NCBI GenBank assembly: GCA_964035545.1 | Contig: OZ037765.1 | Location: forward strand, 2,909,001-2,973,000 | Direction: 5' to 3' | Length of the DNA stretch: 64,000 nucleotides | Source: Bugula neritina | Lineage: Eukaryota > Bryozoa > Gymnolaemata > Cheilostomatida > Bugulidae | Part shown: positions 6,862 through 64,000 of the stretch, one piece after another | Numbering within the stretch: the first letter of the stretch is position 1 | Layout: each line of letters opens with the position of its first letter | Position numbers and translations under genes: made by a program | Notes under the pieces: generated by a model | The model's database searches: none | Told to the model about the DNA's origin: nothing | The model's input: only the letters and a program-made list of their open reading frames with translations

Positions 6862-11686
<4,825 letters not shown>

Positions 11687-13595: not shown

Positions 13596-14049
13596 AAATA
13601 CACTAACTTGAAACTAAGAGCACCACTGTACGTGTAAGTATCACTGTCAGTAAAACTAAATAGTAAAATACGTTTATTATTATTATTATAATTATCATAA
13701 TTAATAACATTAAATATCAATTAGCTTAAGACATTTTTACTGAAGATATATATTAGCACTCAGCTAGTCGTAATCATAGCTGCACTTGCGTAGTTGTCAT
13801 AATTCTTGCCATGTATTTAATTTATAATTATCACCCCAATCACAATGACAGCTATACTTTTGCTCATTGATCGTGGGTAAATTGAAATGAGAATGTGAGT
13901 GAGTAAGTTGCTATTGTAATCTTTGTGAACATTCCTGTGGCTATTAAAATAATTTCTTTTTACCAACCATTTAAAAAAGGTGTTTTGTAATTTTCAAAAC
14001 AAGTTTTGATTGCTAGTGTTGTTTGTAGATATTTAGTCAGTGGCATATT

Positions 14050-17000
14050 ATGGATTCAGGAGATGAAAGAGCTCCTCTGCTCCTTACCCGAACAGTTATT
14101 CAGCCCTCTACTCAGCACACTTTAGCTTGTGCGGCAGTCATTGCAGCCAACTTTTTTGAGAGACTTGCTTATTTCAGCATTGCTGGAAATTTAGTTTTCT
14201 TTCTAAGTAAAGAACCTTTGTGCTGGCCAATATCATTGGCTACAGTCACCATACTCGTATTAACAGCTATAACATATCACTTGGGTTTAATCAGTGGATG
14301 GCTCTCCGACAGCTATTTTGGCAGATACCGAACTATTTTAGCCGGTTACATTATCTACATATTGGGTTACGGTTTCTTTCTTTATGTTACTTATTATTCT
14401 CAACATCCTGCAACACCTGAGAATGTAACTGATGAGGGCACTTCCTGTAATTCGAAATGGGGAAGCTATGGAAAGCCCCCGGTTTGTGCAAAATCACACT
14501 GCTGGATAGTGTTGTATATAGGAGTCATATTGGTGGGGATCGGAGCTGGCACTGTTAGTACTAACCTGACATCATTTGGTGGTGACCAGGTGGGTTATGT
14601 TGACCTTGTATATTGGTCATCAGTTGGGTTGTGTGTAACTTTATATGGAAAATTAATTTTTATGGCTGTGTTTCATCTGTTTTGAAGTCATTTTAGGCTA
14701 TTGAGAGCATTAGATTAATCCTAAAAGCTTGATTTTGGCCAAGTGTAAATTATTGTTGCAATAATTTACTGTTGATATCCTTTTAGTCGGACCAATTTTC
14801 TGTTATATCAGGGTTTTCTATTTCCCTAAATATGAAGTTCTAGTAGATACAGAAGGTATGCATAATTACAGGTTTTGAACCAAGTTAGCTTATATATATG
14901 GGATTTTAGTACAAGGTATATTCCTACTATGCCATATCATAACGCTGTGCTCTTTCTAGTCTATTGCTGTCCATGTAGGCACGGAGCGGTGGCATCAAAT
15001 CTACCCATAGGTTTTTCACAGGATATTACTGGTCTATCAATATGGGTGCTCTTCTGGCACTAGTGGGCGTGGCTATCATTCAGGACGTAAACTATTTCAA
15101 TGGATTCATTGTGTCAGGATCTTCACTTATTCTCAGTTTTCTGTTATTTTTATTGGGTAAGTCTATAGTGTTGATCCATTCTATAGATAGCTAATTCTAC
15201 CTTGCTTGGTTATTTTCATGTTTTACACGGCTGGTTATTGACTTTTGTAGCTAATTAGGTTTATATCAAAGAAGTTTTATCATCAGATAGTATTTTCATT
15301 ATACTATATAGCATGTGTATATTGCTTCTTCAATTAGATGGGCATAAAACACCCAACAAGACTTTTTTGTACCTAAACTTAGGAAGGATGTTTTGCTAGC
15401 AGTAATAGCTTCTGTTTTATGTACTGAAATGGAATTAGTAATTTTTTATAACTTTTTTATTTGATTTGTCAATTTACTATTATGAATGTAAATATCGAAT
15501 GAAATTATCAAAATAACATGAGTGACTTGTTTTCGGAACCCTCTGTTCAACGTGTAGGTAGACTCAACTTCATGGAAACATCCTTCGCTATTGTGCATAT
15601 GGACCCACATCACTGACTTTTTTCTATTTTTCAACCTATGACATAAACTACTATTTGATGAAAATACAAACAAACAAACAAACAAACAATATTGCAAGTT
15701 ATTTTATTGATTTGGATTGCAGGTACAAAGCTGTACATTAGAAGACCAGCAGGTGCCATTAATATCTTCAAAATAGTATATCGTGTGATAAGCAACGCTT
15801 GCTATGTGAAAAGGAACTCCAGTATTCAGTAAGTTTTATTTTCTAACCATTTATAATGCATAATTATAGTAGTATTCTTTTTGTGTATTGATTTACATTT
15901 TCTATTATTTTCATTTGATGATGAACTGTAATATTTTGCAGCCTAATATTAACTGCGTAATTTTTTCAACATTTCGTAAAATATTAGCTTAGTCTGCGGA
16001 TATATTATTTGTAGGGATGATGGAACAGTTCACAATTTCTTAGACTATTCCAACATGGAACATGAAGGTGGAGAGTTTAATGTCAATCAAATTGAAGATG
16101 TCCGACGTCTTTGGAAATCGTGTAAAGTGTTTCTACTGACAATACCCTACTGGGTGTGCTACAGTCAGGTAGAGCAATGGTAGACTTGAACATAATTTTC
16201 TAGTTTATATACAAACCCAAAACTAATTAAAACTATAATACAAAATGAATATATTGATTTTAAAAGGCTCTCCAGTGTGTGGTTTTATTTTTCTCACATA
16301 CTGGCTTGCAGTGTTTTGCTAACTACACGTTTTCTCAACTTCTAACTTGCAATTTATTTTCTAATAACTGTTTCTCTTCATGTCTTTCTCCTGGTCTAGT
16401 TATTTGATGTTATCTTTGCAGATGGTTTTCAATCTTTTCCTTTTACAAGGACTGCATTTACGTGTGCGTTTTGACAATCAATCCAAATGCGTTTCAAACA
16501 GTCCAATCAAATCCCAGGGAGCTAGAGCCAATCTGTGTGACAACACCTCTCATATAAACTATACTGATGACAACGGAATTCCGGTGAGTCTAAAACTTGA
16601 AGTCCTACTTGATTGTAGCTTTTAATAGGATAATAATAATAACCTTACATATTTAGTTTTGTATTATCTTTTAAATGCTTTGCTATAGTTGAATACTTGT
16701 ATCATAATCCTGTGATCACATAATGTTTACATAGGAACATTGATTTTAAGTTGTGGTTTTTAAAACAAATGTTTTCGGATTGGATAGTATTTAGCATATA
16801 TATATTTTTTTAATAAATTGCTATAGTTTTTAGTAATATAGACACATATATAATATTTTAGATTATATAATATAATACTATTTCAGATTCCTCCAGCCTC
16901 TCTTGCTGCATTCAATGCCGTTTTCATAGTGCTGTTTCTTCCCTTGATACCAACGTGCTACAGGTTTCTCTCTAAGAGGGGAATTGAGGCCCTGACATGG

Positions 17001-18456
17001 CGCAGGTTGTGGCTGGGCATGCTTCTAGCATCTTTGGCTCTTTTAGCTGGCGGTTTACTCGAGTATTTCAGACGGGCAGACATTGCGAAATGTGGCCTTT
17101 TTCGTCAAGTTATTGGTGTGCAAGTATAACACTCCATGATTTGAGTAAATGACAAACAATTTTTAGTAAGAGTCATTAGAAGACTGAAATTCACCTGAAG
17201 TATAAAATTCATTTGAACATTAAAAATTTTAAAAAGTGTCTGCTGGATAAAGAATTTGACTTTTGCTGTACTTTGATATTGTAATGTTTAGGCAGTGTGC
17301 ACTATGTCGCTAGCTTTTACTTTACTTCTATTTGTTACTTACAAGTCAAGATATAATGAGGTTGGAACTGTCACTGAAATTATTTTCGTTATTGTTTGTA
17401 GGTGGTACATATTATGACGCCTCACCAAATTTATCCTTGTTGTGGCAAATACCTCAGTATTGTCTGGTGGGAGCTAGCGAAGTCTTCTTTGTTGTTACAG
17501 GTATGTTTCATATCTACTCAAGTGTAGCATATTTAACTCAAGAAATAGCTCATCCCCCTTTAGCTCATTATATACGTATCTCATTCCCTTAATTTATTAC
17601 CAGTGCCACCCCTGTGCTTATTACTAATGTCATCATCTTAGTCCATTACTTATGCCCCCATTTCAGTTCACTGCTACTTTCTAGTGTCTCCATAGTTCAA
17701 TACTGGTGCCCCCCCTCCCCCCCCCCCCGTAGTTAACTACTGCATCAATCTCATGATATGCATGCCTATTGAATTGGTGTTAGGCATCATGTAGCAATTG
17801 CTTTCCTTTCAAACTCAACCAAATCTCCAAGTTTTTTTATATATCAGGAAAAAAAGAATCCTTACGATCTAAAAAGATTATGCATTTCTGACGGCAATAA
17901 CCATGATAATAATATGGTGTGGTTTACAAGTATCTGTTCAGACTTCCACCAGAGCACAATTTTTGACATTGTGTAGCATAATCAAATATATTACAGATAT
18001 CAATAATTAAACACGTTATTTCTATAATTCAGAATAATAATTTCTTGTATTAGCTATTTAATATTTATTGCAGGTATTGAATACGCCTACATAGAGTCAC
18101 CTATCAACATGCAAGGCGTTGTTATGGGACTTTTCTGGCTTGCTAGCGGAATTGGGAATTTTATTGGTCTTACCCTGCCATATATATTTCAATATATTGG
18201 GGACATTTGGCAACCTAAAAAGTATATTAATTGTAGTAGAATTGACAAATATTTTTTCATACTAGCAATTTTTATGTTAATTTACTCCTTTATTTTTATC
18301 TGCATATCCAAATGTTGTGATCTTAGTTTGGACAGTGTTATTGTGGAAACGCATCAGAAACGCAACAATTCAGAACCCGAAAGCGCTTCTGCTACTCCTC
18401 AACTTGCACGTCGACGTGCTGTTCGGCCGGTTAATTTTGAATCTTCAGTCGAATAA
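14050..18456 (+). CDS. SLC15A4: SLC15A3/A4-type peptide/histidine transporter, tandem copy 2
   Basis: Eight exons: 14050-14589, 14979-15156, 15723-15828, 16015-16168, 16422-16583, 16887-17115, 17402-17500, 18074-18456; total 1851 nt (616 aa), no stops. Same family, dileucine start (DERAPLL) and signatures as copy 1, to which it is very similar. Main differences: one extra N-terminal residue, three fewer residues in the exon 5 loop, and a changed tail of exon 5 (DDNGIP). Asn34 replaces the first Glu of ExxER and Ser170 replaces the TM4 Lys. The luminal loop between TM3 and TM4 is complete, with an N-glycosylation site (PENVT) and Cys residues. Exon 6 again uses a GTGTGC donor (17116). The upstream block has a CLEAR-like E-box. 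Confidence 0.93.
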
Positions 18457-20700: not shown

Positions 20701-21160
20701 ACACTAACTTGAAACTAAGAGCGTCGCTGTAAGTGTAAGTATCACTATCAATAAAACCAAATACGTTTTTTATTATTATAATATTAATTAATTATTACCA
20801 TTAATTATCAATTATTATTAGCTTTAGGCATTTTCACTGAAGATCTATATTAGCACTCAGCTAGTGGTGATCATAGTTGCACTTGCATAATACTAATTGC
20901 CATAGTATTCATAGTTCTTGCCATGTATTTAATTTATAATTATCAACATAATCACAATGACAGCTATACTTTTGCTCATTGATCGTGGGTAAATTGGAAT
21001 GAGAATATGTGAGTGAGTAAGTTGTTATTGTCTTTGTAAACATTCCAGTGACTATTAAAATAATTTCTTTTCTGCAACCATTTGAAAAAGGTGTTTTTTA
21101 ATTTTCAAAACAAGTTTTGATTGCTAGTGTTGTTTGTAGATATTTAGTTAGTGGACTATT

Positions 21161-24100
21161 ATGGAGTCAAATGAAAGAGCTCCTCTGCTCCTTACCAGGA
21201 CCATTATTCAGCCCTCCACTCAGCACACTCTGGCATGTGCGACAGTCATTGCAGCAAACTTTTTTGAGAGGCTCGCGTATTTCAGTTTTGCGGGAAATTT
21301 AGTTTTCTTTCTAATTAAAGAACATCTGGATCTGCCAATCCCATTGGCTACAGTCACCATACTCATATTAACGGCTATCACATCTTGCATGGGTTTACTC
21401 AGCGGGTGGCTATCCGACAGCTATCTTGGCAGATATCCAACTATTGTAGCTGGTTACATTATCTACATTTTTGGTTATGTCGTTTTTGTTCATTATATGT
21501 TGTATATAGGAGTCATATTGGTGGGGATCGGAGCTGGCACTGTTCGTACTAACCTGCTATCATTTGGTGGTGACCAGGTGGGTTGTGTTAACCTTGTATA
21601 TTAGTCATCAGGTAGTTTATGTTCACCTTGTATATAGTATTCAGGTGGACAGTGTTTACCTTGTATATGGCAGATTAATTTGTATGGCTGTGTTTCATTT
21701 GTTTGAAGTCAACATTTTAAGCTATTAAAAACATTAGATCAACCTTGGAAGCCTGATATTGGTAAAATGTAAATCATAACAATATTTAATTGCAAAACTT
21801 TTTTTGACTCCAGTGCATAACCAATGCTCATTATTGATTATTTAAATTTTAGAACTTCAATTCAACAAATAATGCATCATTTTTTTCTGAAATCATGACT
21901 ACTACCACAAGGTACATGTATATAAACTTGGGATTTTTTAACAACACCCAGTTGAAGATACGTTATGTTTGGTTGAAGCTGGTTCATGTACATTTAGGTT
22001 TCGTTTGAAGCATGTATTCGCTGTCCATGTAGGCACGGAGCGGTGGCATCAGGTCTACTCATAGGTTTTTCACAGGATACTACTGGTCTATCAATCTGGG
22101 TGCTCTTCTGGCACTAGTAGGTGTGGCTATCATTCAGGACTGGAGCTTTTTCTATGGATTCATTGTGGCAGAATCTTCACTTCTTCTCAGTTTTCTGTTA
22201 TTTTTATTGGGTAAGTCTTAGTCTATAGTGTTGATCTATTCTATAGACAGCTAATTTTACGTTGCTTAGTTTTTTTATTCTTACCAGTGTCTTAACTTTT
22301 GTAGTAGATTAGAAATTTATATTGTAGATGTTATATTATCAGATGGTATTGCTACAGTGTTCTAGGGTGATTTATATTGCTACTTCATCAACAGGAAAAG
22401 CACCACAAAAGCTCAATTTTACTTTATTTTTTCTAGTGTAATTTTTTTGGAGTAGTAATTTCTGGTTGATGTGATAAAATTGCAGTTTTATAGTTTTATT
22501 TTTCATATTTCAAGTCATTATTATGGGAAATTCCAAGTATGCCTAATGAAACTATCTAAACAAGTTTTAGTATAACTTCTAACTTATATTATGGAATATC
22601 TACTCAACAAGTGTAACTTGAATCTAAACTTTACTTCATGGAAACATTCTACTTACAATAGTGCCAGTGATTTTATCTTATTTGTAATGCAGGTAAAAAG
22701 ATTTACATTGAAAGATCACCTGGTGCCGTTAGTGTTTTTAAAGTAGTATATCGCATAATATGCAATGCTTACTATGTGAAAAGGAACTTCACTATTCGGT
22801 AAGTTTTATTTTCTAATTATTTCAAATACATAATTACATAATTATAATAATATTCTTTTTGTGTATTGGTAGACATTTTCTATTATTTTGATTTGGTGAT
22901 GAACTGTAATATTTTGCAGCCTAAATTTTTTCAAGATTTTGTAAAATATTAGCTTAGTCTGTGGATATATCATTCATAGGGATGATGGAACAGTTCACAA
23001 TTTCTTAGACTATGCCAACATGGAACATGAAGGTGGAGAGTTTAATGTCAATCAAATTGAAGATGTCCGACGTCTTTGGAAGTTGTGTAAAGTGTTTCTA
23101 CTGACCATACCCTACTGGATGTGTTACAGTCAGGTAGAGCAAAGATGGAGAAAGTTGGGACATACACATACTATTTTTCATTTCATATGAAAGGCCATGT
23201 CCATGTATATAAGATTTTCTAAATTAAACTGTTGATATAAACTGAATTTATTAGTTCAGATAAATTTTCCAGCGCATAGTTTCATTGTATTCAAGGTTGC
23301 AAATTGTTACCAACTGTTGAATTTTATAAATTTTCTTGTTATGTCTTATAGTAGGCCTATTCAATTTAGCAATAGATTTTCATCCATGGCTTTCTCTCTT
23401 TCTCTCTCCGCCCCCCTCCCTCTCTCACTCTGGCGTCATTCTGTTTTAGTTATTTGGTGTTTTCTCTGTAGATGGTATTTAGTGTCTTCCTTTTACAAGG
23501 ACTTCATTTGCGTGTGCACTTTGACAATCTCACTGCCTGCCCTTCAAACCTTACTACTAGTACCACAAAAACAGAGGGAGCTGGAGCAAATCTGTGTCTG
23601 AATATATCTTACATGGAGCAATCTATTGAGAGTAGATTTTTAGTGAGTTTGAAATATGAATTCTTAGCTAATGATAGCTTTTAATAAAAACTAGCAACTC
23701 ATGTTGATAATTTTTTTATTATTCTGCAATTGCAATGCAATGTAGCTGTAGTTGTGTGTTTATATCATGATTCTGTTCTTGCAATATTTAAATTGTAGTT
23801 TCTACAATCATTTCTTATACAAATTTGATTTTTCTAGTGTGCATTTGTGTTTGACAAGTTTATTCACCTGATTCTCTAGTTTCTGACAATGCTGGATGAC
23901 ATTAACGAGGTTGTTACTATTTCAGATTCCTCCTGCCTCTCTTGCTGCATTCAATGCCATTTTCATAGTGCTGTTTCTTCCCCTGATACAAAGGTGCTAC
24001 AGGTTCCTCTCTAAGAAGGGGATTGAGGCCCTGACATGGCGCAGGTTGTGGCTGGGCATGTTTCTGGCATCTTTAGCTTTGTCAGCTGCCGGTTTACTCG

Positions 24101-25873
24101 AGTATTTCAGACGGAAAAATATTGCTGAATGTGGCCTCTATCGTCAATCTATTGGTGTGCAAGTATATCAATATTGAATTAAAATTGTTAACACATTGAA
24201 AAAGTATCAGTGTTTAATAAATAACAAAATTCATTTGAATAGAAAAAACCACCCTGTGCTGTAGTTTTGCTTACATCTGATCTTATTACTGTTTATAGGG
24301 AATACATATTATGACACCCCACCACGTATATCTGTATTATGGCAAATACCTCAGTATTGTCTGGTGGGAGCTAGTGAAGTCTTCTTTGTTGTTACAGGTA
24401 TGTTTCATATCTACTCAAGTGTAGCATATTTAGCTCAAGAAATAGTTCATCTCCATAATTCACTACTAGTGCTCCCCTTAATTCATTACTAGTGCCCTCC
24501 TCAGTTCACTTCTAGTGCCCTCCCCTTTAGTTCACTACTAGCTTCAATTACATAACCCAAGTTTAATAAATGTATATTTGACACCAGTGTATGATTGCTG
24601 CTCTTAAAATAAATCCTCATCATTATCTACTTGTTTTATCCCCCAACTGATTTCACACAACCAGTAAAAACAAAATTATGGCACTATAAAAAAATAGTTC
24701 TGCAATTTTAGCTGCTATGAGCATAATACTATGATTTACAAGTTTCTTTGCATGCCTCTATCAGTTTTGACATTGTACTCCCCTGTTCACAAATTACCGT
24801 ATCGTAAACCGTAACAGAGCAAACAAAATGGTGCCGCTGTTACGTTTTGTCAACAGTCGTTCACACATTGACGTAAAAGTACAGATGTGACCAATCATAA
24901 CAAAGCTAACTCTTGTCTGCTGTGACTTATACGCCTTTGGATATTATTCACAACTTATTGCAACATTCTTTTCAAAAGATAAGGTTACAATGCTATTGAT
25001 TAAAGAAAAGCAATAAAATGAAAAAGATCTCTCTTTTAAATACATGATTCTTTAAAATAATTGTGCAAACTAATTTGAATGATAAATATTTTAGCCGTCC
25101 AAATATTTTTTAAGTTTTTAGTTTGCATGCTTTTGTGATTAGGGAAAGCTAGATTTTGAAGCTGAGTTTAATTTAAACAAGCCGGATGAAGATTTTTTAA
25201 TCAATTAAGAATTTTGAATTGGTTAAATTGAATCAACAATAAGCGACTAAAGTGAACAAGCTAAAATGTTCCTTAAATTTTAGTACCGGATCAACTCTAC
25301 CCAATAGGAGCTCGTTGTAATTTTTTGAATCAAGCACTGCTTGATCAACGATTCAGCCTGGATGTTATCAAAGATGGCGGATACTTGCTGTTACGTTACG
25401 GCAATGTTTGAACAGGGGGAATGGCATAATAAAATATATTACGGACACTATAGTTCAACATCGTTTTCCTGTATTTGCTATTTATTGCAGGTATTGAATA
25501 CGCATATTTCGAGTCACCTATCAACATGCAAGGCATTGTTATGGGCCTCTTATGGCTTGCTAGAGGGATTGGGAATTTAATTGGTATTGCTTTGCTATAT
25601 GGATTTCAATATTGTAAAAACATATTGTCCACATCAAAATATCTTGATTGTAATAGATTTGACTGGTATTTTTGTATATTAGCAATTTTTATGTTAATTT
25701 TCTCCTTCATATTTATCTGCATATCAAAATGTTGTGATCTTAGTTTAGACAGTGTTATTGTTGAAACGCATCAAAGACGCTACAACTCAGAAACTGAAAG
25801 CGCTTCCGCTACTCCTCAACTTGCCCGTAGACGCACTGTTGTACCCGTTAATTTTGAATCTTCGGTCAAATAA
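21161..25873 (+). CDS. SLC15A4: SLC15A3/A4-type transporter, tandem copy 3, luminal loop deleted
   Basis: Eight exons: 21161-21577, 22033-22210, 22693-22798, 22980-23133, 23472-23642, 23926-24154, 24299-24397, 25491-25873; total 1737 nt (578 aa), no stops. Same family and exon structure as copies 1 and 2, but the most diverged. Exon 1 is 123 nt shorter than in copy 2: an in-frame loss of 41 codons removes nearly the whole luminal loop between TM3 and TM4, including its N-glycosylation site and Cys residues, leaving TM3 almost joined to TM4 (VFVHYMLYIGV). Asn33 replaces the first Glu of ExxER and Arg129 the TM4 Lys. Intron 7 holds a 640-bp insertion absent from copies 1 and 2. Open frame and normal splice sites argue that it is expressed, but function is less certain. 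Confidence 0.88.
24780..25420. mobile_element. Insertion with degenerate inverted ends in intron 7 of SLC15 copy 3
   Basis: Intron 7 of copies 1 and 2 reads continuously through the place where copy 3 has about 640 extra bases (between GACATTGT and GCATAAT). The insert starts CCCCTGTTCA and ends TGAACAGGGG, and the ends stay similar inward (CCGTA..CGTAACAG). It looks like a small nonautonomous DNA transposon. No clean target-site duplication is visible and no transposase frame is present. Confidence 0.6.
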
Positions 25874-29500: not shown

Positions 29501-30259
29501 CTGCAGCAAACGACAACCAGGTGAAAAGTGCTTCACGGACCTAACCACTTCCCTCTTTCTACACAGCAAAGAAAGAATATGACTAAGAGTATATGCATTA
29601 TTGAAAAATATGAAAAAATATTGCGAAAAATTAAGAAACTGTTAGCTGTACAGCTGTTAACTTATGGCAGCAAATATTAGAACAGGAGCCAATTTAGAAT
29701 TTATACAATAATAGTCCATGACATGAATAGCATTTATAGTGATGAACAATCAAAATATAAATTATATAGTTTATTACCTGTAGTCCTTTGATGAAATTCA
29801 CCAGACTAGAGATGTTAATCGCATCTAAAGCATCATATAAACAGAGGATCTGCACGGCACTGAGGGAATACAATAGGTGAGGGTCGTGCGCTTGACTTGC
29901 CCCAAACCCTCCGCAATCGTGTTGACACGACTTCACAAAGTCTACAGCTTCCTGGAGAACAGAAAACTGGCAGCCGTAGTAAAAGTATCAGCAATATTTT
30001 ATAAATCCAAACACACATTTAAAGGATATAAAAAATCAAGAGTTCAAACCTGTCTGTCCATCCGATGAAGTTTTCCCATCAAGTCCATGGCAGTTAGTCC
30101 CCAATAAATCCCACTCATTCGCAAATACTCAGTCATGATGTATTCATAATCATTTTTTTTTTCGGAATAGGCATGAATGTAGTCACTGTGCTTGTCCAAA
30201 ATAAGTTCTGATATAACACCATGAGCTTTCAGATCTACATCCTTAATTGTAGTGCCCAT
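26504..30259 (-). CDS. RABGGTB: Rab geranylgeranyltransferase (GGTase-II) beta subunit
   Basis: Five exons on the minus strand, in order: 30259-30050, 29951-29778, 29424-29227, 28248-28015, 26692-26504; 1005 nt, 334 aa (human about 331). The enzyme transfers geranylgeranyl groups to C-terminal cysteines of Rab GTPases presented by REP, as a dimer with RABGGTA in the cytosol. Near-identical blocks to the human protein are visible: DDYEY-type start with [16 protein letters not shown] and [16 protein letters not shown] repeats, and [20 protein letters not shown]. Zinc ligands are present: Asp and Cys in LPDVCYSWW and His in VDPFHTLFG. All introns are phase 0. It is divergent from GLT1D1 and convergent with SLC15 copy 3. 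Two cut-off copies of its last exon lie between the SLC15 genes. Confidence 0.96.
27790..27950. repeat. Dispersed repeat, copy in RABGGTB intron 4
   Basis: About 100 bases (core AAACATCAAATGAAAAATCC, about 27868) resemble 43230-43380 in the third intron of APEX2 (AAACATCGAATGAAAAATCC). Both lie on the same strand. No coding signal; probably an old interspersed repeat. Confidence 0.5.
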
Positions 30260-40040: not shown

Positions 40041-43000
40041 TCATGAAACTTCATCAGCCCATAAAAAGTAAGAGCATCTCGCTTGTTTGTCATTGGCTAA
40101 CCCCACTGGCCGAGCACAGCTATAGAACTTTTTTCCTTTATTTTTACCAACTTTTTTTACTGTCTGCAGCACGCAGGTTTCCTGGTGGGCCAGACATTTT
40201 GGCGCAGATTTCTTTGGGAACAGTTTGCTCCACTCTTGTGATTGGCTCTTCTCTCCTCCAATGACTGAGTCCGACTGTGACGAATCTGACAACTGGGACT
40301 GTGATAGTGGTTCTTCCTGAGATTCATTTTCCTTTTTGACTTCATTCTTCTCTTTAATCAAAAAATTTGTTAGCGATTGACTTTTCGTAGGTTTCCGTTT
40401 CTTTTCAGGGGGTTTGGTGCCTGTTTGGGATAACGGTGTTGAGCTGAACATATCGTCATGAGATTTTTTGTTGGCATTTGTCATAAACATAGTTAACTTC
40501 TGTTGTTTAGCCTTGAATCTGTAGCTGCTACAGAGAGGCGGGGGTTTGACAGATGGCTTCACATTAATATTTGTAATCTCAGCTTGTACTGGACAATGAT
40601 CAGAACCCATGTATTTAGCCATGACTTCAGCGGATTTCAAATGTTCACGAAGCCTGCCATCTAGGAGTATATAGTCAATTCTCGTACCAAAGTTGGTTTG
40701 CCTCGCATCTGCAACATCCGCAAAAATAAATACAAATAAAACCCCAAAAATTATCAAATTTTGAACTCCAAGAATAAATGCTGAGCAACTAATGAAGTAT
40801 GATAAGGTGAGAAGCAAATACATTTTAAACAAAAATGCCATTATAGAAATGTAGTCAATCATGTTGGCAGTTGCAAATGAATTTAATCTAATTCCTATCA
40901 ACAGCTCCCAATGCTTTAAATGGCTCTTGTCCAATCACTCACTATATTAGCTGAAGAGTGTGAGTAAGAAAACTGCTACACACTAACACTACAATCCTAG
41001 CCTCCCCCACCCATGGTAAGTGCATACGTACTCAGCTTAGTGTTCCAGCAGGTATACGCATACTTTGTACAGGGATGTAGCACTCTGTATGTGTCTATGA
41101 GTGCACCAGCACCCGGAGTCAGCATTTTGTCTAGCCATTGTCTGTGAGGCTGACTAAGAAATTCCTGTAACATATAAGAAGTATTATACAATTGGATAGA
41201 TATAGAAGTACATGGTGTCAGCTGCTTTAAACCAGACAGCACTTCATCTATATCATCAGAAGGCTTTATCTTCACTTAAAGGATTGCTCTATCTTGTCTA
41301 ATAAATGGCCATTTAGGTCAAACACACATAATATTGTGTTTTTCTAAGCATGCATTGACAAAAAGCATTTGACCAAAGGTAGAAAAAGTTAGTTGAAGTT
41401 GAGGGTGTAGATTGGTAACAGCCAAAACGCCGATTTTGAAATGAGCTGGGAAATGTGACGTAACAGCGCCAGCATTCCTGCTGGTCACGTGACTATACAA
41501 ATGAATAACTATAGAAATATGACTGTGAGATGTGATCTTTCAGCTCGTAATTTGTATATTTATAGAAGTGCAAATGTGAATTATCTCAATCTATAGTTTT
41601 TTGACATGTTAAATAACATGTATGTGATAACATTAGGCCATATTTTGCGTGTAAGCATAGAAAAAAGCATTGCAAAAACATGCATTCTTTAGGATGAATG
41701 CCTGCGATCGATCTAAACTAGGTCAGATTGTGCAATATTACGGGCGCACCAAAGCTGACCTATATAGCGCACTGTAACTGCTTGAGCGTTATTGGTTGAT
41801 GTTGCTCTCAGCAACCTTGAATACTAGCGTTATAGTTAGCACGTGCAGCATAGTTACTGGCGTTCACACGTCACGTATTAGGCTATTCTTTTTCATGGCT
41901 GAAAATTTTACCTCCCTCAAAATTGGAATTTCGAAAAGCTGTTTTCTAGGCACATATCCCTTTGCAAAGTCACAATTGTTTGCATACAAATTAGATTATA
42001 GTTCATAATTATAATGTGATTGTAATAAACTAAGATAGAGCAATCCTTTAACCAACCCTGAATAGATATACATTATATATTCAGAAAAAACTTTTATTTA
42101 TAGAAAAGAAATCACCATTTTGAAACACTATATGAAGGTCTTTATGCTAAATGTTTTAGCACAAACCTCTGTACATTAATCCTGAGGTTTTATAGATGAA
42201 TAAAAAATATTCATGCTCCAAATGTTACATCCAACATTATTTTAAGAATCTACAATAGGTAAACATACAAAGTGTATGTACATAAAATAAATGTAAAGCC
42301 CACAGACTTATGAAGGGCAACTTTTAAACTAGTAAAAAACTGAACATTACAATTTGAGTAGCAAATAGATAGATTGAACGTTAGCCTAAGGCACTCAAAG
42401 GTAACTTGGCGTGTAAAGGGTGGTGAATAGATTAGGACAAACCTCAGTATCTCCAGGATCACAGCTGTCTATAACTTTATGAGAAATGTTGATATCACCC
42501 AGCACGATGACATAACTACAAATAACCAATACATTGCTTATTGAACATGTCTGATCAAAACTTTAACAATTAATGTTTTAAAGTAGCCTTAATATTAAAA
42601 ATTTGGCTGCTAATTCAACCTCTAAAAATTATTATTTCTATCTAGATATCTATTAAATAATTAGAGGCTATGATAATACTAGGTGATAGGTCAACATTTA
42701 ATAGACTGTAAAAGCACAGTTTAGAATTCACCTAATTTTTTGGAGTTGTCTGATTCTCTCCTCCAACGTCTGTAGAAACTGAAGTCTGAACAATTCTCTA
42801 CCCTCAGTTTCTCCAGTAACACACGGACAGTACAGATTAATGAGAGTTAGCAATGACTTTTCTTTACCTTCATCTCTAAATGTATGCAGAGGCAATATAC
42901 TTATATCTCGCATATCAGACTAACAATGCACTACGAATATTCTTTTTAGTTCAATATTTCTTACTTTTACAAAACTCTCTCTTAACATAACATACAACCT

Positions 43001-50861: not shown

Positions 50862-51852
50862 CTTGTTATAAAACAAAGCTGGCTGCTAGCTTTTTCAACA
50901 AACACTTTACAATTGAGTATATGAATGTAGCTGCCTTATCTTTTATGGAACTTATGATTGATAAGGAAACCATAAAGATAGCACTGCAGTCACTCAATAC
51001 TAGCTATCACCCACTACAGCAACACGTTTTAGTTAATGTCATGAGTAATAAACGCTTTTTATTGGCTATTGGCGGGTATGAAGCTGGAGATGTGACAACT
51101 GATTGTAAACGCATTTACAAAACTGACCTCATAAATTTGTTTTACCTTTCAAAATGTAAAATAATCTAGTGGCATGTTTTGGCAATCTTGTATAAGTTAA
51201 TGTTGTCACTTGAAAGTCAAGCTAGATATTATTACATATACCTTTTTTATTTTGTAATGGGTTTAGAAAGAAAGCAACTATTTTCTTCAATATTGACATA
51301 TATTTTCAGTTATGTATAACCTACCAGAGTAATATATTTTCTAGTATAACAATGTAACAGTAAAAACAAGTTTTATCGTTTTTTTGCAATTAAAACTATA
51401 TTCGAATCACTACTATTTTAGCAGGTTAAAGATATTTGAATCATTTAATTGTACAGGCAGCATCTCAGTAATTGTACAGGCAGCATCTCAGTAATTGTAC
51501 AGAAATATCACAAAACAACTTTATTATTTAGAGAATAAATTGATTTTTAAAGAAATAAAACATATGAACATTGGAACAGAAATAATTTTGATGAGCTAAA
51601 AAGTTTTTTTTGTATAGCTTGTAGTTTTTGAGCAACAAAGTTTCTTGTTTGCATATGATAGTTTGAAAGACATGGCTGTATGCTCAAATGTAAGTTTAAG
51701 CAAAGCAGGTTCTGTGAGTTTGGTTAGATTATTAAATTTTTATTTATTGCATCAGATATGCATTATATAGCATTAGGATTGTACTTCAATGTTATTATAG
51801 CATCAAACTATTTTTAGTAAGAAGTTTTAAAATCAGCAAAGAGGTTGATGAC
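50862..51852. other. Intergenic region with 23-bp tandem repeat
   Basis: Between the 207-aa gene and the first two-repeat gene. A 23-bp unit (AATTGTACAGGCAGCATCTC plus AGT) occurs twice plus a partial third copy at 51447-51502. TTTATT at 51739-51748 gives AATAAA for the gene ending at 51853. A plus-strand 82-codon frame (50921-51169) has no support as a gene. Confidence 0.5.
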
Positions 51853-53124
51853 TTAGTAGCCTCTTCCTTCTTCCGTCAAATGCTTGTGCGCTCGGTGAGG
51901 TAACAACTGTCCAGGAAGTCTGAAGTAAAACAGTGCGAGATGAGTACAGAAAGCCAGAATCATTCTTCTCCTGTCTCCAAGAACTTTTTCATCAGTAAAC
52001 CGAACTTTCACGACGTGGAATTCAGAGTTGATTTTTGCTAGCACTCTTTTCTCATTCAGCGCTGATATGATCTCTAGGTTAAACTTAGGCTCGTTGTTCA
52101 GCATACCTTGCTCAGAGGGATGGACAATAACAGGAGCCTGTGTCCTTACTTTCATGTATGGGACCGGAGTCTCTGCCAATTTGGCAGTAGATGAAGGGTT
52201 GCTTTTGCTGCACATAGTGTAAGATCCTAAATCACAGCCGTTTTCTGAGTGTACAGTGATAATATCCGACCCGTTTGTCCTCTTACAAGAAATATCTGGA
52301 TACTCAGTTAGTCCATGAAACTTCATTACATCCAACAATAGTTCTACAATATAAACAACCCTCTTGGGTTTTGGGTGAATGATGTCCACATGTACCCTAC
52401 CGAACGTCGCCACCCCTTTGGAGTTTACGAATAATCGATCTCGACAAGAGCCCCGGATAATCAACTCATCAGTGCAGTCTAAAGGATGACACTGTTTAGC
52501 ACAACATACATTGTTGAAAAACATTGGCAAGTTTGTTAATTGGAACATGTTAAACTCTATGGCGAACTCCCTCAATGCGCTGGCTAGTACGAATCCTATA
52601 GTGACGGCAGAGCAAGAGCGACCTGGTGTTACCACTATCGATTCATATTGTTTGTCTAAATTGGCAATCAAAGCAAATTTATTAACAGAACGGTATTCTA
52701 TGTTGAAAGGTTTGTCGTTGACACATGTCCTGTGTAGAGACAGATTATTGCAAGACGCATCTGACGGATTGGTGAAAGTAACAAAGTTCTGCGATGCATC
52801 AGCACTTTTAGTTTGGCATATATCGAAAAAATAAGAAAAGCTCAATATGCCATTAGAACTGAAAGAATCTAGTTTACCAACTCCAACTTCATTTCCTAAT
52901 TCATCAGCTATTGTGATATTACTTAGAGAAGTAACTCCACTAAACTTCACGGTGCCTAAAATCCCAGCTTGCAAATCTAGTCGGATCAAATCGAATTCAG
53001 TCTCCTGGACATTGCAGTTATCGCTTATCTCATTCATTCGAAGAGCAAATTTCGTTGACATTAGACTCTCCAGAAACTTTTGTGTAGCCGACGGACCAGC
53101 CATGGGCACATGTTCTTGAGCCAT
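51853..53124 (-). CDS. Unrecognised 423-aa protein A, intronless, two-repeat (Tubby/scramblase-like?)
   Basis: One uninterrupted minus-strand frame with a good start context (AAAATGG) and an AATAAA about 110 bases after the stop. It is clearly homologous to the next upstream gene, B. No signal peptide. The chain seems to have two similar halves. Each is rich in alternating hydrophobic residues (beta strands) and ends in a strongly hydrophobic helix: about 171-194 (VTIGFVLASALREFAIE) and about 387-405 (MILAFCTHLALFYF). A beta barrel closed round a hydrophobic helix is the plan of the Tubby C-terminal, scramblase and LURP-one superfamily. I infer that fold but see no family signature, so function is unknown. 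Conserved with B: TEF(D/E)LIR, SCRD, FGRVH, CKR, ITVH, GSY.M, and the end LPGQL.PHR. Intronless form, unlike all neighbours, suggests retrocopy origin. Confidence 0.8.
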   Translation of the reverse strand: MAQEHVPMAGPSATQKFLESLMSTKFALRMNEISDNCNVQETEFDLIRLDLQAGILGTVKFSGVTSLSNITIADELGNEVGVGKLDSFSSNGILSFSYFFDICQTKSADASQNFVTFTNPSDASCNNLSLHRTCVNDKPFNIEYRSVNKFALIANLDKQYESIVVTPGRSCSAVTIGFVLASALREFAIEFNMFQLTNLPMFFNNVCCAKQCHPLDCTDELIIRGSCRDRLFVNSKGVATFGRVHVDIIHPKPKRVVYIVELLLDVMKFHGLTEYPDISCKRTNGSDIITVHSENGCDLGSYTMCSKSNPSSTAKLAETPVPYMKVRTQAPVIVHPSEQGMLNNEPKFNLEIISALNEKRVLAKINSEFHVVKVRFTDEKVLGDRRRMILAFCTHLALFYFRLPGQLLPHRAHKHLTEEGRGY

Positions 53125-53649
53125 TTTGATTCTATACTGCTTCTTTTTTCGATTTCAACTAATTTAAATTTTGCGTAGCAATTGTTTATAAAGATATTTA
53201 TAAAATTTTAAAAATTCTTATTGCTTAAATGTTTTTAATAATAGCTATATAAAATAGCAATATAAATTTCTGTTTATGAGTACACCAAATTCCAGCTCAG
53301 GCTAATGTAATTTGCATTTTTTAACATGGTCTCACTTTCATAATATAACATAATTTCTATATTTTATATATACAATTTATATATTTTCTCTACTCGTTAT
53401 ATCTATTTGCTTATTTGTTATAACTATTACAAAGTTTGTAACTTAACAAATGCAAAGAGCTGGAAACTGTTATCTTGAAAGATTAGCATTTTATTTTTTA
53501 TAAGTAAACTTGTAATAACAACTTTATTTATAAGAGCTTTTTTTAATTATAAAGAATCTGCAACATAATATTTTTGTCTCAAAGACTATCAACAATTTAA
53601 TTTAAGTTTTGATTATGTGTCACCATGTTACTTTTGTTGTTGAATGTTA
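53125..53649. promoter_or_regulatory. Spacer between paralogues A and B
   Basis: 525 bases, very AT-rich, that must hold the promoter of A and the 3' end of B. TTTATT at 53490-53495 gives AATAAA about 155 bases after the B stop. No gene is seen. Confidence 0.5.
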
Positions 53650-54888
53650 CTAAGACTGAGAGTCAGATTTGTACTTGTAAGGTCTGTGGGGTATGAGTTG
53701 CCCAGGTAGCTTAAAATAAAACAGCGCAAGATTGGTACAAAATGCCATCAGCAGTGTCTTGAAGCTGTTTTCATTCAATTCTTCTGAGAGAGAAACTCGA
53801 ACCACGTAGTTTTCAAACACAATCTTGCACAGTGTACGACAGTTGTCAAACGCACTGACTACCAGCAAGTTAGATTTCATTTGACAGTTGATTTGATCAT
53901 CTCTGGATACATAAACAGAGGGAGGCAGGGCTTTCACATGAAAGTATGGAGTACTGAGACCAGGAATTAGTCCTACAGATGTTGGATCACTGCGACTAGA
54001 CATTGAGTAGCTGCCCACTTCCTCGCCGTCATAGCCGTGTACAGTAATCATGTTAGAGCACTCAGAGCGTTTACAATAGAACGGAGTGCAACCTTGCTGG
54101 TTGTTGAACTTGATTTGATGAGACATCACCTCGACAACATACAGCAGTCTGTTCTCCTTGTTCAGAGTAAATATCTCTGCATGTACTCGGCCAAATGAAG
54201 GCTTTCCATTCTGATTCATAGTAAACTGGTCTCTGCATGAAGCTCTAATAACCATTTCTGGCACAGGTACAGGAGGGGATAAGCACTTTTCCATCATATC
54301 CGTTGGCAGTGGTGTAGTCAGATACATTTTATAAGTGTAGAAATACTCTCTGATTGCAGCGACAAGAATACACCCAACAGCGTATTTAAAGATGCTTTTT
54401 CCTGGTGAAATGACAATAGCAGACTCTTGCCGATAGAGAGATGCTACTTCGGAGCTATCAAACAGTCTAAATATAGACTTTGTCGTATCGTTGATAATGG
54501 AGGGACGGATTATTATCAAATTACTTAAACATGGCCCACATGTTTGAACAAATGTTACCCCTTCTTGGGTTACACTTGCTTCCACGTTATCGGGGCAATC
54601 AAAGATGGTCAAACTTGAGGCTATTTGTGGATCACATGAATCAAAGTTAGCTTCACCTACTTTAGCTCCCTTTGGATCTACAAGAGTGATAGTTGATCCA
54701 AGTAGATGCACGGAGCCCAGCACTCCTGGCTCTGTGTCGGTCCTAATGAGCTCAAACTCTGTGCTAAATGCACTGCAGGAAGCGACAAACTTCCGGCAGT
54801 CAGCACGAATACCGAAACTTTGAGCACACAGACTGTTGAGGAATTCACTTGTCGCAGAGCTCGCTACAGATGCGCCACCAGCAGCCAT
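53650..54888 (-). CDS. Unrecognised 412-aa protein B, intronless paralogue of A
   Basis: Single minus-strand frame, stop TAG at 53650-53652, start context CAACATGG. It aligns with A from end to end. Shared blocks: TEFELIR (44-50), PGKS with a hydrophobic helix to about 189, ASCRD (216-220), FGRVH (232-236), YCKR (271-274), MITVHG, GSYSMSSRSDPTS, STPY, and AFCTNLALFYFKLPGQLIP near the C-terminus (382-400). Overall similarity is moderate, so the duplication is old compared with the SLC15 array. Both copies stay open over 1.2 kb in AT-rich DNA, strong evidence that both are maintained as proteins. No catalytic motif is recognised. The conserved Cys and charged residues around SCRD/FGRVH are the best candidates for a functional site. 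Confidence 0.8.
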   Translation of the reverse strand: MAAGGASVASSATSEFLNSLCAQSFGIRADCRKFVASCSAFSTEFELIRTDTEPGVLGSVHLLGSTITLVDPKGAKVGEANFDSCDPQIASSLTIFDCPDNVEASVTQEGVTFVQTCGPCLSNLIIIRPSIINDTTKSIFRLFDSSEVASLYRQESAIVISPGKSIFKYAVGCILVAAIREYFYTYKMYLTTPLPTDMMEKCLSPPVPVPEMVIRASCRDQFTMNQNGKPSFGRVHAEIFTLNKENRLLYVVEVMSHQIKFNNQQGCTPFYCKRSECSNMITVHGYDGEEVGSYSMSSRSDPTSVGLIPGLSTPYFHVKALPPSVYVSRDDQINCQMKSNLLVVSAFDNCRTLCKIVFENYVVRVSLSEELNENSFKTLLMAFCTNLALFYFKLPGQLIPHRPYKYKSDSQS

Positions 54889-57258: not shown

Positions 57259-60200
57259 CTAATTAACCGCTTGTTGCTCCTGTTCTGGTTCTGGAAGTAT
57301 GATCATCCAATGGAGTCCAAGACGGAAATATTTACAGCATTTATAAAATATGAAGGTGCAAACAACAAGAAAAAAGGCCAAGGCATAAAAATAAATATCT
57401 AACTTTCCACAGTTGATGTTATTTGTCACTTGAAATATAGTTGTTAGAGCTAATCCAATAAAATTCCCAATGCCGATGGAAAACCAAAGTAATCCCATAG
57501 ATAGTCCTTGCATGTGAACCGGAGACTTGGTGTAGGCATACTCTAAACCTAAAAAAACAATCATTACTTTTGTTTTATAACAATAGCATGGAGTGTAGAA
57601 ACAATGCTAGTGGTTGCACTTGTAATTTGTACTGTAGCATCTCTTTATTTTAAAATTTAAAGTTGTTTTTTAGGAAATTATTTTCACATTTAGGAACTCC
57701 AACAACATGGTTGCCATACAGTACTTTTATATAAGGCATCCATTATTTGAATTTAAATATAGAAAACTGCACATACCAAGCAAAATTATTAGCAAAAGAT
57801 TTTAATTGCATAACAATATTCTTGTAAATTTACAAGTTTCTTGAACATGGCTCAATATTGACAATAACGTTTTTTTATTTCACAGAAAAATGTTGGTATA
57901 ATTCCTTAGCTAATCTTTAGCTAAAAGAATACATGAGTTTCATATCTTATAGCAGTTAAAATGTAATATCTAAATTATTGTTCATTTTTGTTATTTCTTT
58001 TGTAATAAATCATATCATTATTTTCATTTTTTGCTTATGTTTGGGTGAATTACAATACCAAAAAAGTTAACTGGTCAATTAAAACTGTTTCAAAATAAAT
58101 AAACCAACCTGTGGCTGTGATTAATATTTCACTCGCTCCTGCTAAGCAATACTGGATAGTTTGCCACGCAATATGTAATGATGGTGCAGTGCGATAATAA
58201 GTAAAATCTAAAACAGATGAAGAATTTATTTATAGTTAAATAAATTCCTATATGAAGTATCATTTCAAAGTACAAATAAGTTGCAATAATTTTACAAATT
58301 TCTATTGCCAATAAAGTGGTTGAAAATATCAATAATTTTACCACAACTCTTGAGCATGATCACAAAACATAGCAACTTGTTTAAACATTTACTAAACAGG
58401 GTTATATAAGATTTATTTGGGAAATAAACTTGACTGCTGGACAATGACATGCTTTAATGATAGAAAAAAAACAAATATAAAAGAATCAATAGAGGTTTTA
58501 ATTCTATGGACAATTTTGCAACTGCATGGCAAGCTACCTATATCACTGTAATATGTACATAAGTAAAGATGGTATATCTGATTATAGACATAGTTTTTTA
58601 TTACTGAATTTGATAACCACGTTGTAGTTGCAACACACAGTTTTTTGAAATTTTTATTTTAAGCTGACATAAATTAGCACCTTCTATCAACTCAGCAGAT
58701 CATAATATTAACAAAATTTATAAAAACTCGAGCCAATAAAAAGACAAATTTTGCCTTAAGGTCTTAAAAGCTTATATGTAACTTAATTCAGTGAAATAAG
58801 CGCCTGTAAAATGTGAATTTTTTTGAAATTATATTGGTTTTTTGAACTAAGAGAACAGCTTTGGTGCAGTGGTTAAAGCGCTGCATGGCCTAGTGAAAAA
58901 GAAGGTAAGTCCTTAAAGTTCAAACACCAACGGGGAGGTTAGGAAAAGCAATCAGTCATACTTGCTTCGGTGTAGTATTTAAAAATAAGTTTTTATATAG
59001 CTGGTTTTACTAAACTCTTTCTATCAAGAGTACTAACAGGGATAATTACTACAAACTTGCGTAAGAGATTTTTACTAACCTATAAATTGAACCTGTACTC
59101 CAAGTTCACAAATATTCTGTAGCCGTGCTGTTTCAATAGCTCCGGCGGCAAGCATCGACAATGAAGCGAAGATCATACCCATGACAAGACGGCGATATGT
59201 ATAAATAAAACAGTTGCGAGCAGTGAGGCATTCGTAGAAGGTATGAGCAAACGGCAGGAATAATAAAATGAATATATTGTCAGCAATACTCAGAAATGCA
59301 GCCGCCATCTAAAATAAAATAGCACATTTAATGTAACCCAATTTAATTAAATTTCAAATGTTTCAATAATGAAAGAATATACTATTAGTTGCAGGTTTAT
59401 TAGTCATTAGTGTAACACAGTTCATTGAGACAGTTTCCCACAATAAACTGCCTATCCATATTATTTCTAGATATCTATTTTTATTAAGCATCATTACGTT
59501 GTTGATGCAACCTCTCTACCGCCACATCAATAAACATTATATTCAAAAGCAGCTGAATAAAAATCAAAGATATTTTAGAATATTGATTATCAACACATAC
59601 TGGACTGTTTTTTGAGCTAGTGTCTCCATCTAAATATGTTGTATTAGTCACGCTGTCACAGAGAGTTGAGTTGAGCAGCTGCCACCTGGAGGTGCAGGAT
59701 GTTATTGGAAAGACGGTTGGCTGATCAAGAGGGAAGCCGAGTGACATATGAAGTCCTTGCAGTTGGTAAATGTTTCCCATAATCTAAAAACAATTACTAA
59801 AAAAGTAAAGCTTTGACTTTATTCCTCCAGTTTTGATTGCAGTTTTTTTTTAAATTTTTGAAAAGTTTGCAATTTACTAACATTAGGACAAAATTTGTGT
59901 TTTTAATGCTGCTAGAAATGTATATTCAGTTAAACATGGTGCTGTAATTCGTATATACACCAGAGCTTTACAGTGGTCAAATAGCTTGTGCTTTATGTCA
60001 TGCAGTTTTCTCCTTGTACTGCAACATTTGGTCACAGAATTGTGAAACTACATTTTTAGTAATCCTATTGTATAAAATGTAAGTTTGTAGAACTATATAT
60101 CTTAAAAATGATATGTTTACCTTTTAATGCCATGCCCTGGCCAGTTGGCAGAGAAGATGATGGTATATAACCATGATTTTGAGTAAACATTTTAATAAAA

Positions 60201-61528
60201 GCAGTTTTATCATTCATGAATACAAAAACTTGCATGACTGTAGCAGATCCAGTAGGGAACCATCAACAGAACCACTTTGAATATCTGACAGATGTTCTTT
60301 GTATCTCTTATCTCTTGAAATGTACACTCAGCTCCAGGGTAACCTTTAGCCTCATTGGAATATTCCAGAAGCCATTCTTCCTCTATGCTAAAATGTTTAA
60401 TAATTAACCATTATTTAACAAATAATAATAGCCAACTGTTTAGCTGCCATAAAATAAAATACATTCCCTTTACTTGAAACTTACAATATCCTGAAGTTTC
60501 TTTCAAAAAATACTCTTGATACACCAAAAGTTATGTATTTTTAAACTTATCGTTTATTTATCTATTAAACAAGTATAATTATTATACTAGCTACTCTTAA
60601 TGATATAAAAATCATTTTTAGCATGCAATCTTATGTTATTCGTTACAGGAATATTAAACATCAGAAAATATTTTTTTTAAATATATGACTTAATTATTAA
60701 TTTAACAATTGTACACTAGTATCTGTAAATTTGTGTGATAATTTGAATGTTTTTTTAGCATTAATCAGGTATGTGATAGCATATATCACTAAAGTTGGCT
60801 TCAATAATCCATCAATAGTCTTTAGTTACTAATAGACATCAAACACAAGTCATTTTATATGAATACATGTAGAGCTATATGGGCCACTTACTCGGGATTG
60901 TTTCTCTTCACTTTCCGGGCATTGCAAATAACCTTAAATATGTCCTTCACTACAAATCTCGATTCAGGTAATCTTTTGATAGATAATTTCATACCTAAAA
61001 CATAATTTAACAAAAATTGTATTAGCCAAAAACTTTTGAGATGAAGTTAGTAGTTTTGCTAATTTGAATGACAAACTACATTATATTAAAAATTTAAGGT
61101 GACAAAGGTGAGTTTAAATCAACATTTGGTAATAATAGCATAAGATAAATAGCTTTTGGTTTCTTTCACTTACAACTTTTGTTTTAATAATTTACTCACC
61201 GGTTTTACTGTCTTAAAAGCAAAATCAAAATATTGACAAAAGTATCAAGTAAATTATGCTGTTGAGTTAAAGCAATGTTTCAACGGCTTTGACCCGATTT
61301 AGAAGAACAGTTTTGTTTTTGCAAGAAAGTATACCTGACAGGAAAAACAGAAAGCTGAGCAACAGGGAGCTTGATAATGCTATGAGATATCCAAAAGCAA
61401 AACTTGTTCTCTCCTCCAACATAGAAAAGCCGGAATTTGCAATAAGAGCTCCGAGATTGGTTCCCCAGAAGTACCAAGTCATAAACTTGCGAGAGTGAGT
61501 GACTCCGTACATTCGAACCTATGAAGTA

Positions 61529-61624
<96 letters not shown>

Positions 61625-62334
61625 GTATATATATATATGTATATATATATGTATATGTATATTGTTTCTTTTCTCCAATCAGCAATCAACTCTACAAAAA
61701 ATTTAAAATATTGCAATAACGCAACAAATACGTAATATAAGTACATCAACTAAGTTATTTATCTGTTTTACCTGCAAAGTCTTACCTGTTGAGCTCCAAA
61801 CGGTGGTAAATTAGTCTTGACGATTGCAGCTGCCATTGAAATAATGAACAAGGCAAGGCCAATCAGTGATACAGAAAGTCTCAAGTCATCATCAGAAAAA
61901 GTCCTTTCACAAGCAGTTCCCTCATAAGTATTAGACGAAGAATTTTGTGAAATTTTCAAATAATCATACTTTGAAGTTTTATACAGCAAGGCATAACCCA
62001 AGTGGTAGAAAATGTACCCAATAATAATGGTCACATGACGACTTATATAACTATCAGATATCACGCCCCCCAGCAAACAGCAAGTATAGGTAACAGCATT
62101 AAAGAGGAATTGCACTGCAGAGGCTTGACTGTCGGATAGGCAAAGGGGCTGCTTAGTGAGGTAAGCAAACAGTGTCCCCGACACGCTGTACCACGCCACT
62201 CTCTCAAAGGTTTCGGCAGCTATGACGAAAAAGGCAGCGGCTATTCGCTTCGGACCTCTTTGCTCATCTTCGTCTACATATGGATGTCTGCCGCTAGTCT
62301 GTGTCATCAGGGGCGTGGTCTCGTTGGCGGCCAT
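57259..62334 (-). CDS. SLC15A4: SLC15A3/A4-type peptide/histidine transporter, fourth gene
   Basis: Eight exons on the minus strand: 62334-61786, 61518-61335, 60994-60892, 60387-60234, 59783-59601, 59308-59080, 58207-58109, 57548-57259; 1791 nt, 596 aa. Exon lengths 154, 229 and 99 equal those of exons 4, 6 and 7 of the tandem copies, so all four share one ancestral structure, but the protein is much more diverged. Start [10 protein letters not shown] with an acidic dileucine-like motif; [10 protein letters not shown] (TM1) keeps the full ExxER (Glu41, Glu44, Arg45) and the TM4 Lys is present (Lys173 in VKTNLPPFG). Thus proton coupling is probably conserved here. PTR2 signature is [11 protein letters not shown], with Thr for the usual Ile. 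Intron 4 seems to use a GC donor (GCAAGT, just below 60234). Intron 1 has a (TA)n tract, intron 6 a tRNA-like repeat. Confidence 0.9.
58861..58936 (+). repeat. Degenerate tRNA-like repeat in intron 6 of the fourth SLC15 gene
   Basis: TGGTGCAGTGGTTA (A-box) and AGTTCAAACAC (B-box, about 58917) are spaced as in a tRNA gene with a long insert, but the stems do not pair convincingly. It differs from the other SINE heads in the window. Confidence 0.45.
61531..61663. repeat. (TA)n microsatellite, intron 1 of the fourth SLC15 gene
   Basis: About 130 bp of TA with a few GTA interruptions, starting only 11 bases from the exon 2 acceptor, where it may take part of the branch-point/pyrimidine region. 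ORFs here are artefacts. Confidence 0.95.
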
Positions 62335-64000
62335 CTTGAGTCTGAAAGAGGTTTATACCAGATGGTTAACCCACATCTGAAATAGTTTCAAAGAATCATG
62401 AAGCAGAGTTGATTGGTTTCTTTATCACACTAAAGCCATAAACATATTTTCATGACAACATCCCAAGTTCCTAGTTTGTTTTCAATAACATTTGTTAACC
62501 AAGATGTAGCAAGTTTCGTTTCGCTTATCTAGTTATTGCATGTGATTATTTAGAATTGGAATTAATGCTGGGTTGTTTCCTCAATTGTGCCCAACACCAC
62601 TGTGAAACCTTAAACCAAGTTTGACAAAATGACATTAAAATCTGTAAAATCAATTAGGCCTACTGATAACTCACACAATGAACATAGAGAAACTAGCAAA
62701 CATTGCTAACATACATTACAATACTAGATCTATTACGACAAAATGATTGTTGCAAGTGAAACTGCACTAATATGCAGAGGCAAATAAAGTTGACACTATA
62801 AAAATGCTAGTATTATAGTCACATATAAAATAAAACAAACAAAATTGAGTATACTAAATCTAAACTATTACCTTTATTTCTCTAGTGACCACAAGACTGA
62901 TAATAAAATGCGCAGTGAGTATAAGTAAAAATGAACTATTTTAATTTTGTATGTACTAATCATTTTGATACCAAAAGCCTACTGACAGCCCAGACAGCAG
63001 CAATAACTAGTGGAGAAAATTTATTACATTATTTAAAAGTGCATTGGTGGATTTGAATAGCCCAAATCTTTGCCAGCCAGTGACCAATGCTGACAGCAAT
63101 GTGGCAGTGAAGCAAGGCCACAAATAAACTGTGAAGGTATAAAGGCAACTTGAGAAGCATGGAATATGAGAAGCATCTTATTACATGATAGCATAGGCTA
63201 TACAAAGTAATGAAGAAAAAATTAGCCAAGATCTTGTTACACAAGAAGCGCTAACTTCAAAACATGAAAACTTTCATTTTTCACTGACAACGAATTTCAA
63301 TTACTTTCAGGATGGTTAATATCCTTCTTTTGAGCAGTAATCAACTGTGACTGTTCGGTTCAGTTCCAAAGACTTTTTTAGTTTGAAAAATCTCTAAATG
63401 ACATGCTCATAATAACTTAGTAAATAAAAGCTAGAACTTTATCACCTAGCACTATGTTTCTAAGTTGCTATTTGTGCTGAAAATACTCATTAAACTTAAT
63501 CCTATATTTCATCATTTCAGTGCAACAGCAATAGCTGTTGGTGGTTTGGACAAAAATCAAACCACTAGTTTGGTTGTAAGCCACAGTGAGTTATGATGAC
63601 AAGGAATTGTTTGCTCTTGTTACATAATATTATTTTGTATTGACTATAATAATCAGTAAAGAAAGTGCAATAGTAAACAAAGAAAGGGCAGAAGTTATGA
63701 GAACTAATTTTCAGAACAGACAGTATCTTTCTCTTTTTATTGTAGCTTTCTATAGAAAACTGGTGGTGTGATTAAGTAAGTAAAATCTAAGGCTCCTTAA
63801 AGCAATACAGCTGAGCAATTAGCATTTACAAGTAGCCAACGAGAAATGACTCAACATAAACATTGCGATGTATTATAGCTGCATATGCTACTGTAGAAAC
63901 TGGGGCATAGCATCTTGCATACACACATTCTTAGCAATGTTTGTGTGTATTCTGCGTAGGACAGTGCATTGGTAACACTTCTTATCAAAAGGCAGTAGAC
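62335..64000. other. Upstream region of the fourth SLC15 gene, no gene seen
   Basis: AT-rich DNA holding the promoter of the minus-strand SLC15 gene. I found no CACGTG box, no convincing exon and no repeat family. Short ORFs (for example 63029-63244) are Leu/Cys-rich low-information frames without splice or homology support. Confidence 0.5.

Follow-up and report, generated by a model that had tools for sequence, protein, structure and literature searches.

A family of single-exon Bugula neritina genes encoding a duplicated domain, with a candidate Tubby-like fold

The bryozoan Bugula neritina carries two adjacent minus-strand genes, here called A and B, in a 64-kb window of contig OZ037765.1; this window is the whole stretch of DNA that was analysed, and its numbering is used for all positions below. 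They are real, conserved, single-frame genes whose products contain a duplicated domain with a hydrophobic stretch at each domain end. As judged by sequence comparison, they are members of an unnamed Bugula family of at least nine single-exon genes (A to I). For the domain itself, structural modelling makes a Tubby-like closed β barrel, built around the terminal helix, the most likely fold.

A preliminary description of this DNA had reported two neighbouring single-exon genes of 423 and 412 codons that resemble each other from end to end, and both frames are indeed found at the minus-strand positions given in Table 1. The two proteins are 35% identical across 411 columns (BLASTP, E 7e-76), and the blocks SCRD, FGRVH, ITVH and LPGQL, which had been described as invariant, are exactly common to both. 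Chance does not account for such long frames in this AT-rich DNA: the longest stop-to-stop frame at 50-57 kb spans 433 codons, while in 200 first-order Markov sequences the mean was 101 codons and the longest frame had 176. In both genes, an in-frame stop lies shortly upstream of the ATG, and their G+C content (0.42 in A, 0.44 in B) exceeds that of the surroundings (0.22-0.31). The top protein matches of A and B are EB796_015289 and EB796_015290, respectively, both hypothetical proteins of B. neritina; the draft genes of this species are described as AUGUSTUS predictions with transcriptome hints (PMC7576161). The two paralogues have diverged unequally between the assemblies: A differs from its draft protein in 19 of 423 residues, B in 4 of the first 400, after which the last 8 residues of the draft record read differently from the window frame. 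Among 5.8 billion proteins, these two records were the only relatives found with A and B (rather than C to I) as queries, in a search that detects relatives via exact five-letter words only and is thus a weak filter; the full-length searches with A and with B each missed the other paralogue despite their 35% identity.

Further relatives were found in the genome itself (215.85 Mb, 295 contigs), which was queried with A, C and D, so that the family comprises at least nine genes and may have further members. Query A returned B and, on contig C6, a further gene named C (E 1.8e-24; a stop-free frame of 398 codons), whose full-length identity to A, to B and to the draft forms of both is 27-32%. Query C led to D on contig C5 with a match that is weak on its own (E 0.24); D scores 7.3 bits with the profile of the first five sequences, while 2000 shuffled versions of D reach 6.0 at most, and its C-terminal half matches that of gene C with a Smith-Waterman z of 12.7 (0/300 shuffles). 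Query D, finally, returned E, F and G inside 7 kb on contig C5, H on contig C4 (E 1.9e-9) and I on contig C9 (E 0.98). H joins both branches of the family (z 29.2 with D and 14.6 with B), and I is tied in by F (z 15.1) and D (z 10.3; 40 shuffles each). Some direct pairings are undetectable: A yields z -0.5 to 0.7 with D to G, I yields 1.4 with A and 0.6 with B, and the N-terminal half of D, taken alone, fails to match those of A, B and C (z 0.1 to 1.0). Each of the nine genes is one uninterrupted frame, encoding 396 to 438 residues with the starts as we set them, those of F and I being placed within an earlier-beginning frame and within a longer frame beginning in a microsatellite, respectively. 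An AATAAA follows the stop by 89-133 nt in eight of the nine members, the exception being I. The closest pair, E and G, is evidently under purifying selection, given a dN of 0.077 against a dS of 0.44; in the other two pairs tested, dS is saturated.

The tandem arrangement within each protein emerges from all nine paralogues together. When the sequences were halved at one common alignment column and the two sets of halves compared with hhalign, positions 25-196 of the N half aligned with positions 11-180 of the C half over 162 columns (probability 90%, E 1.5e-6). The score of 46.9 stands against 11.0 +/- 2.0 for 60 column shuffles with a maximum of 16.4 (0/60) and against 14.3 for the reversed profile, and the subset D to H by itself reaches E 9.8e-5. 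In an 18-row alignment of the domains, most repeats have a strand around I-R-A-x-x-R/K at their start and a hydrophobic helix at their end. By these comparisons, the N and C halves are homologous and the proteins are tandem double domains. The two halves per protein proposed earlier were not demonstrable from A and B alone, but are borne out by the nine paralogues. A and B by themselves gave no convincing half-to-half similarity: the halves of A reached 9/500 shuffles and those of B scored under the shuffle mean, hhalign returned P 0.14 and, in a second comparison, P 0.12, and a further shuffle test gave 2/60 for local and 29/60 for end-to-end alignment. Halves from three sequences yielded 2/150 shuffles with hhalign, pairwise z <= 2.97 in 18 tests and 67/1000 for the tails alone; halves from four sequences yielded 3/60.

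Each half does close in a hydrophobic stretch. The ends of the halves coincide or overlap with the most hydrophobic Kyte-Doolittle 19-mers, which have values of 1.56 (residues 171-189) and 1.20 (389-407) in A and of 1.49 (158-176) and 1.27 (376-394) in B; the repeat-1 helix of A appears only in a low-confidence model. Peaks of this height (1.2 to 1.56) near the two sites could also mark an integral membrane protein in which two transmembrane helices anchor two β domains; this appears improbable to us, as the peaks stay below the usual cut-off of 1.6 and charged residues occur within the stretches. What speaks for such an anchor is that the corresponding helix of scramblases has been taken as transmembrane (PMC4725246). 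This and the other alternatives considered below are not mutually exclusive.

The evidence for a Tubby-like barrel comes from the C repeat of A, whose model finds its best solved structure in 1zxu (At5g01750), matched over nearly the whole domain (model residues 3-190). In the Tubby-type fold, a barrel of 12 strands encloses a hydrophobic C-terminal helix (PMC4725246). A full-length single-sequence model of A was unusable (pLDDT 32) and leaves the N repeat without a usable model; no tubby-like chain was among the best 50 fold matches listed for it. Support for the Tubby/scramblase/LURP-one fold is moderate and confined to the C repeat, and the N copy would share the barrel because the two copies are homologous. 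The membership in this superfamily that the preliminary description had proposed is partly supported, by the structural likeness of the C-repeat model but by no significant sequence link.

Sequence comparisons gave no significant link to the known families. Against human and Bugula scramblases, the nine-sequence halves reached 13/60 (N) and 2/60 (C) shuffles, which is not significant, and against At5g01750 20/60 (N) and 43/60 (C). The 18-row domain profile gave 4/60 with scramblases and 7/60 with At5g01750, again not significant, and among the 18 PDB sequences that it matches at E <= 10, none is tubby-like. It is on the terminal helix, as would be expected, that the C half and the domain find their best scramblase matches; we count this as no evidence, since the reversed C profile outscores the true one (18.5 vs 16.8). 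No Pfam model matches A to I above its cut-off, and PF04525, PF03803 and PF01167 gave no match at E <= 10 to A to I or to the halves of A to D, with HMMER filters discarding most matches above about 0.1. Such a miss cannot settle the fold: at E <= 10, a LURP-one sequence goes undetected by the scramblase model of Pfam, and a scramblase sequence by the LURP-one model. The domain may, with a lower but real chance, instead be another all-β barrel or sandwich with a packed helix, lipocalin/LolA-like or new, that is unrelated to the Tubby group and perhaps binds small hydrophobic ligands.

Other candidates were dropped along the way. A four-sequence N half had matched scramblases at 0/60, which vanished once nine sequences were used, and in smaller sequence sets no match of the halves to At5g01750 or scramblases held. 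Weak GGDEF matches (3nja, E 0.22; Pfam, E 0.08-0.2) fall at different places in the proteins and were put down to chance, as were two sub-cut-off Pfam matches of H and the SMC1 and CXCL12 matches of the 18-row profile.

Among known systems, LURP-one-related proteins (PF04525) provide the solved structure closest to the C-repeat model, but that example has one domain and the Bugula proteins have two; a search of the Bugula genome with PF04525 returned nothing at E <= 10. Phospholipid scramblases (PF03803) show, by eye, the same tail order of hairpin, strand and hydrophobic helix. However, Bugula's own scramblases are clearly recognised by PF03803 and lie in several exon-sized pieces per locus, whereas the present genes are intronless and double and escape that model. 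The Tubby C-terminal domain (PF01167) has the fold proposed here, but it matches no member of the family, and the genome's own Tub domain belongs to a separate gene on contig C1. Apart from these, Tub-domain matches on contigs C38, C99, C152 and C288 cross 9 to 12 in-frame TAA/TAG and no TGA, as if these contigs belonged to a ciliate-like source in which such stops are reassigned, an epibiont or a contaminant in the assembly.

Table 1. Features of genes A and B in the 64-kb window
Feature	Position	Strand	Basis or remark
Gene A	51853..53124	-	single-exon ORF, 423 aa; = EB796_015289, 96% identical
A, N-terminal repeat (residues 1-207)	52504..53124	-	split by nine-sequence alignment
A, C-terminal repeat (residues 208-423)	51856..52503	-	nine-sequence alignment; 51895-52491 modelled
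A, hydrophobic stretch ending repeat 1 (residues 171-189)	52558..52614	-	hydropathy; helix 173-187 only in low-confidence model
A, hydrophobic helix ending repeat 2 (residues 389-407)	51904..51960	-	hydropathy; helix in C-repeat model
AATAAA, two overlapping	51739..51748	-	104 and 108 nt past stop of A
Gene B	53650..54888	-	single-exon ORF, 412 aa; = EB796_015290, 99% identical over 97%
B, N-terminal repeat (residues 1-202)	54283..54888	-	nine-sequence alignment
B, C-terminal repeat (residues 203-412)	53653..54282	-	nine-sequence alignment
B, hydrophobic stretch ending repeat 1 (about residues 170-186)	54331..54381	-	alignment with A; overlaps hydropathy peak 158-176
B, hydrophobic stretch ending repeat 2 (residues 376-394)	53707..53763	-	hydropathy and alignment
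AATAAA	53523..53528	-	121 nt past stop of B

The arrangement of the genes supports the local duplication and dispersal suggested earlier: A adjoins B, E, F and G are clustered within 7 kb, and C lies on the minus strand among plus-strand exons of a DENND5-like gene (C6:150001-170000). DENND5 proteins have the domain order DENN, dDENN, PLAT, RUN. On one side of gene C lie a DENN match above cut-off and a pair of dDENN matches below it, and on the other a weak PLAT match below cut-off and a RUN match above it; as these exons follow the DENND5 order, C probably sits in an intron of that gene. Dispersal by retrocopy, followed by tandem duplication, is compatible with these data and with the nine uninterrupted frames. 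We nevertheless treat the retrocopy step as inference, because the genome searches with A, C and D found no intron-bearing relative or parent, and the longest runs of A within 300 nt downstream of the family genes measure 3 to 8, with none above 8. The uninterrupted frames (9/9) would likewise suit the uptake of an intronless viral or bacterial gene and its later duplication, and, among the viral fold matches listed for the C-repeat model (Foldseek, BFVD), the highest probabilities belong to two uncharacterised proteins of giant viruses, A0A3G4ZSG7 of Terrestrivirus (prob 0.90) and A0A6N1P065 of Tupanvirus (prob 0.77). Such an origin nonetheless seems very unlikely: these matches reach only E 0.07 and 0.14, scans that used just two short peptide patterns apiece found no relative on viral or bacterial contigs, and A and B have no PHROG match at E <= 1.

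Elsewhere in the window, a Ty3/gypsy-like retrotransposon (141-5913) stands out by a G+C content of 0.52-0.57 against about 0.3; its frame at 2054-4525 encodes RNase H and integrase domains, and a 286-codon frame (5053-5913) shows zinc-finger-like Cys/His spacing and no Pfam match. A and B lie amid an array of POT/SLC15-like peptide transporters split into exons (6856-11686, 14029-18456 and 21152-25873 on the plus strand; 57259-62352 on the minus strand); of three exons scanned, PF00854 recognises one above and two below its cut-off, and the other blocks were grouped by eye. Two further minus-strand exons carry Pfam domains, a GRF zinc finger (40041-40934), which we take to be APEX2-like, and a prenyltransferase domain (29694-29987), presumably RABGGTB-like.

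Taken as a whole, the explanation that we favour, with confidence somewhat above even, is an intronless Bugula family of double Tubby-like barrels that dock on lipids. Each protein of about 400-440 residues would contain one domain twice, each copy folding as a Tubby-like barrel with its helix packed inside rather than spanning a membrane. By analogy with Tubby, scramblase-type and LURP-one proteins, the result would be an intracellular double barrel docking on membrane lipids, and two barrels per chain could allow two-site binding, either avid or bridging. This mechanism is proposed because the proteins have no known enzyme domain, as judged by the lack of Pfam matches above cut-off, and because the helices would be folded inside the barrels; for the role as a lipid tether, our confidence is somewhat lower. 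The family would have grown by local duplication and by intronless dispersal to other chromosomes. The LURP-one proteins of plants and mammalian PLSCR1 have been linked to defence, and one could speculate, at long odds, that this lineage-specific, divergent family expanded in a colonial animal to supply cell-autonomous factors for defence or self-recognition, which would sense membrane lipids or bridge them.

In limited searches of the full text of open-licence papers, we found none on tandem tubby-like scramblase domains and nothing relevant on bryozoan scramblases. The domain, present in nine genes of one animal genome, is recognised by no Pfam model above its cut-off. If the Tubby-like fold is true, these genes would represent a tandem double-barrel architecture that spread as intronless copies in a phylum from which few genomes are available, and the family would be a test case for a fold that has diverged past sequence recognition.
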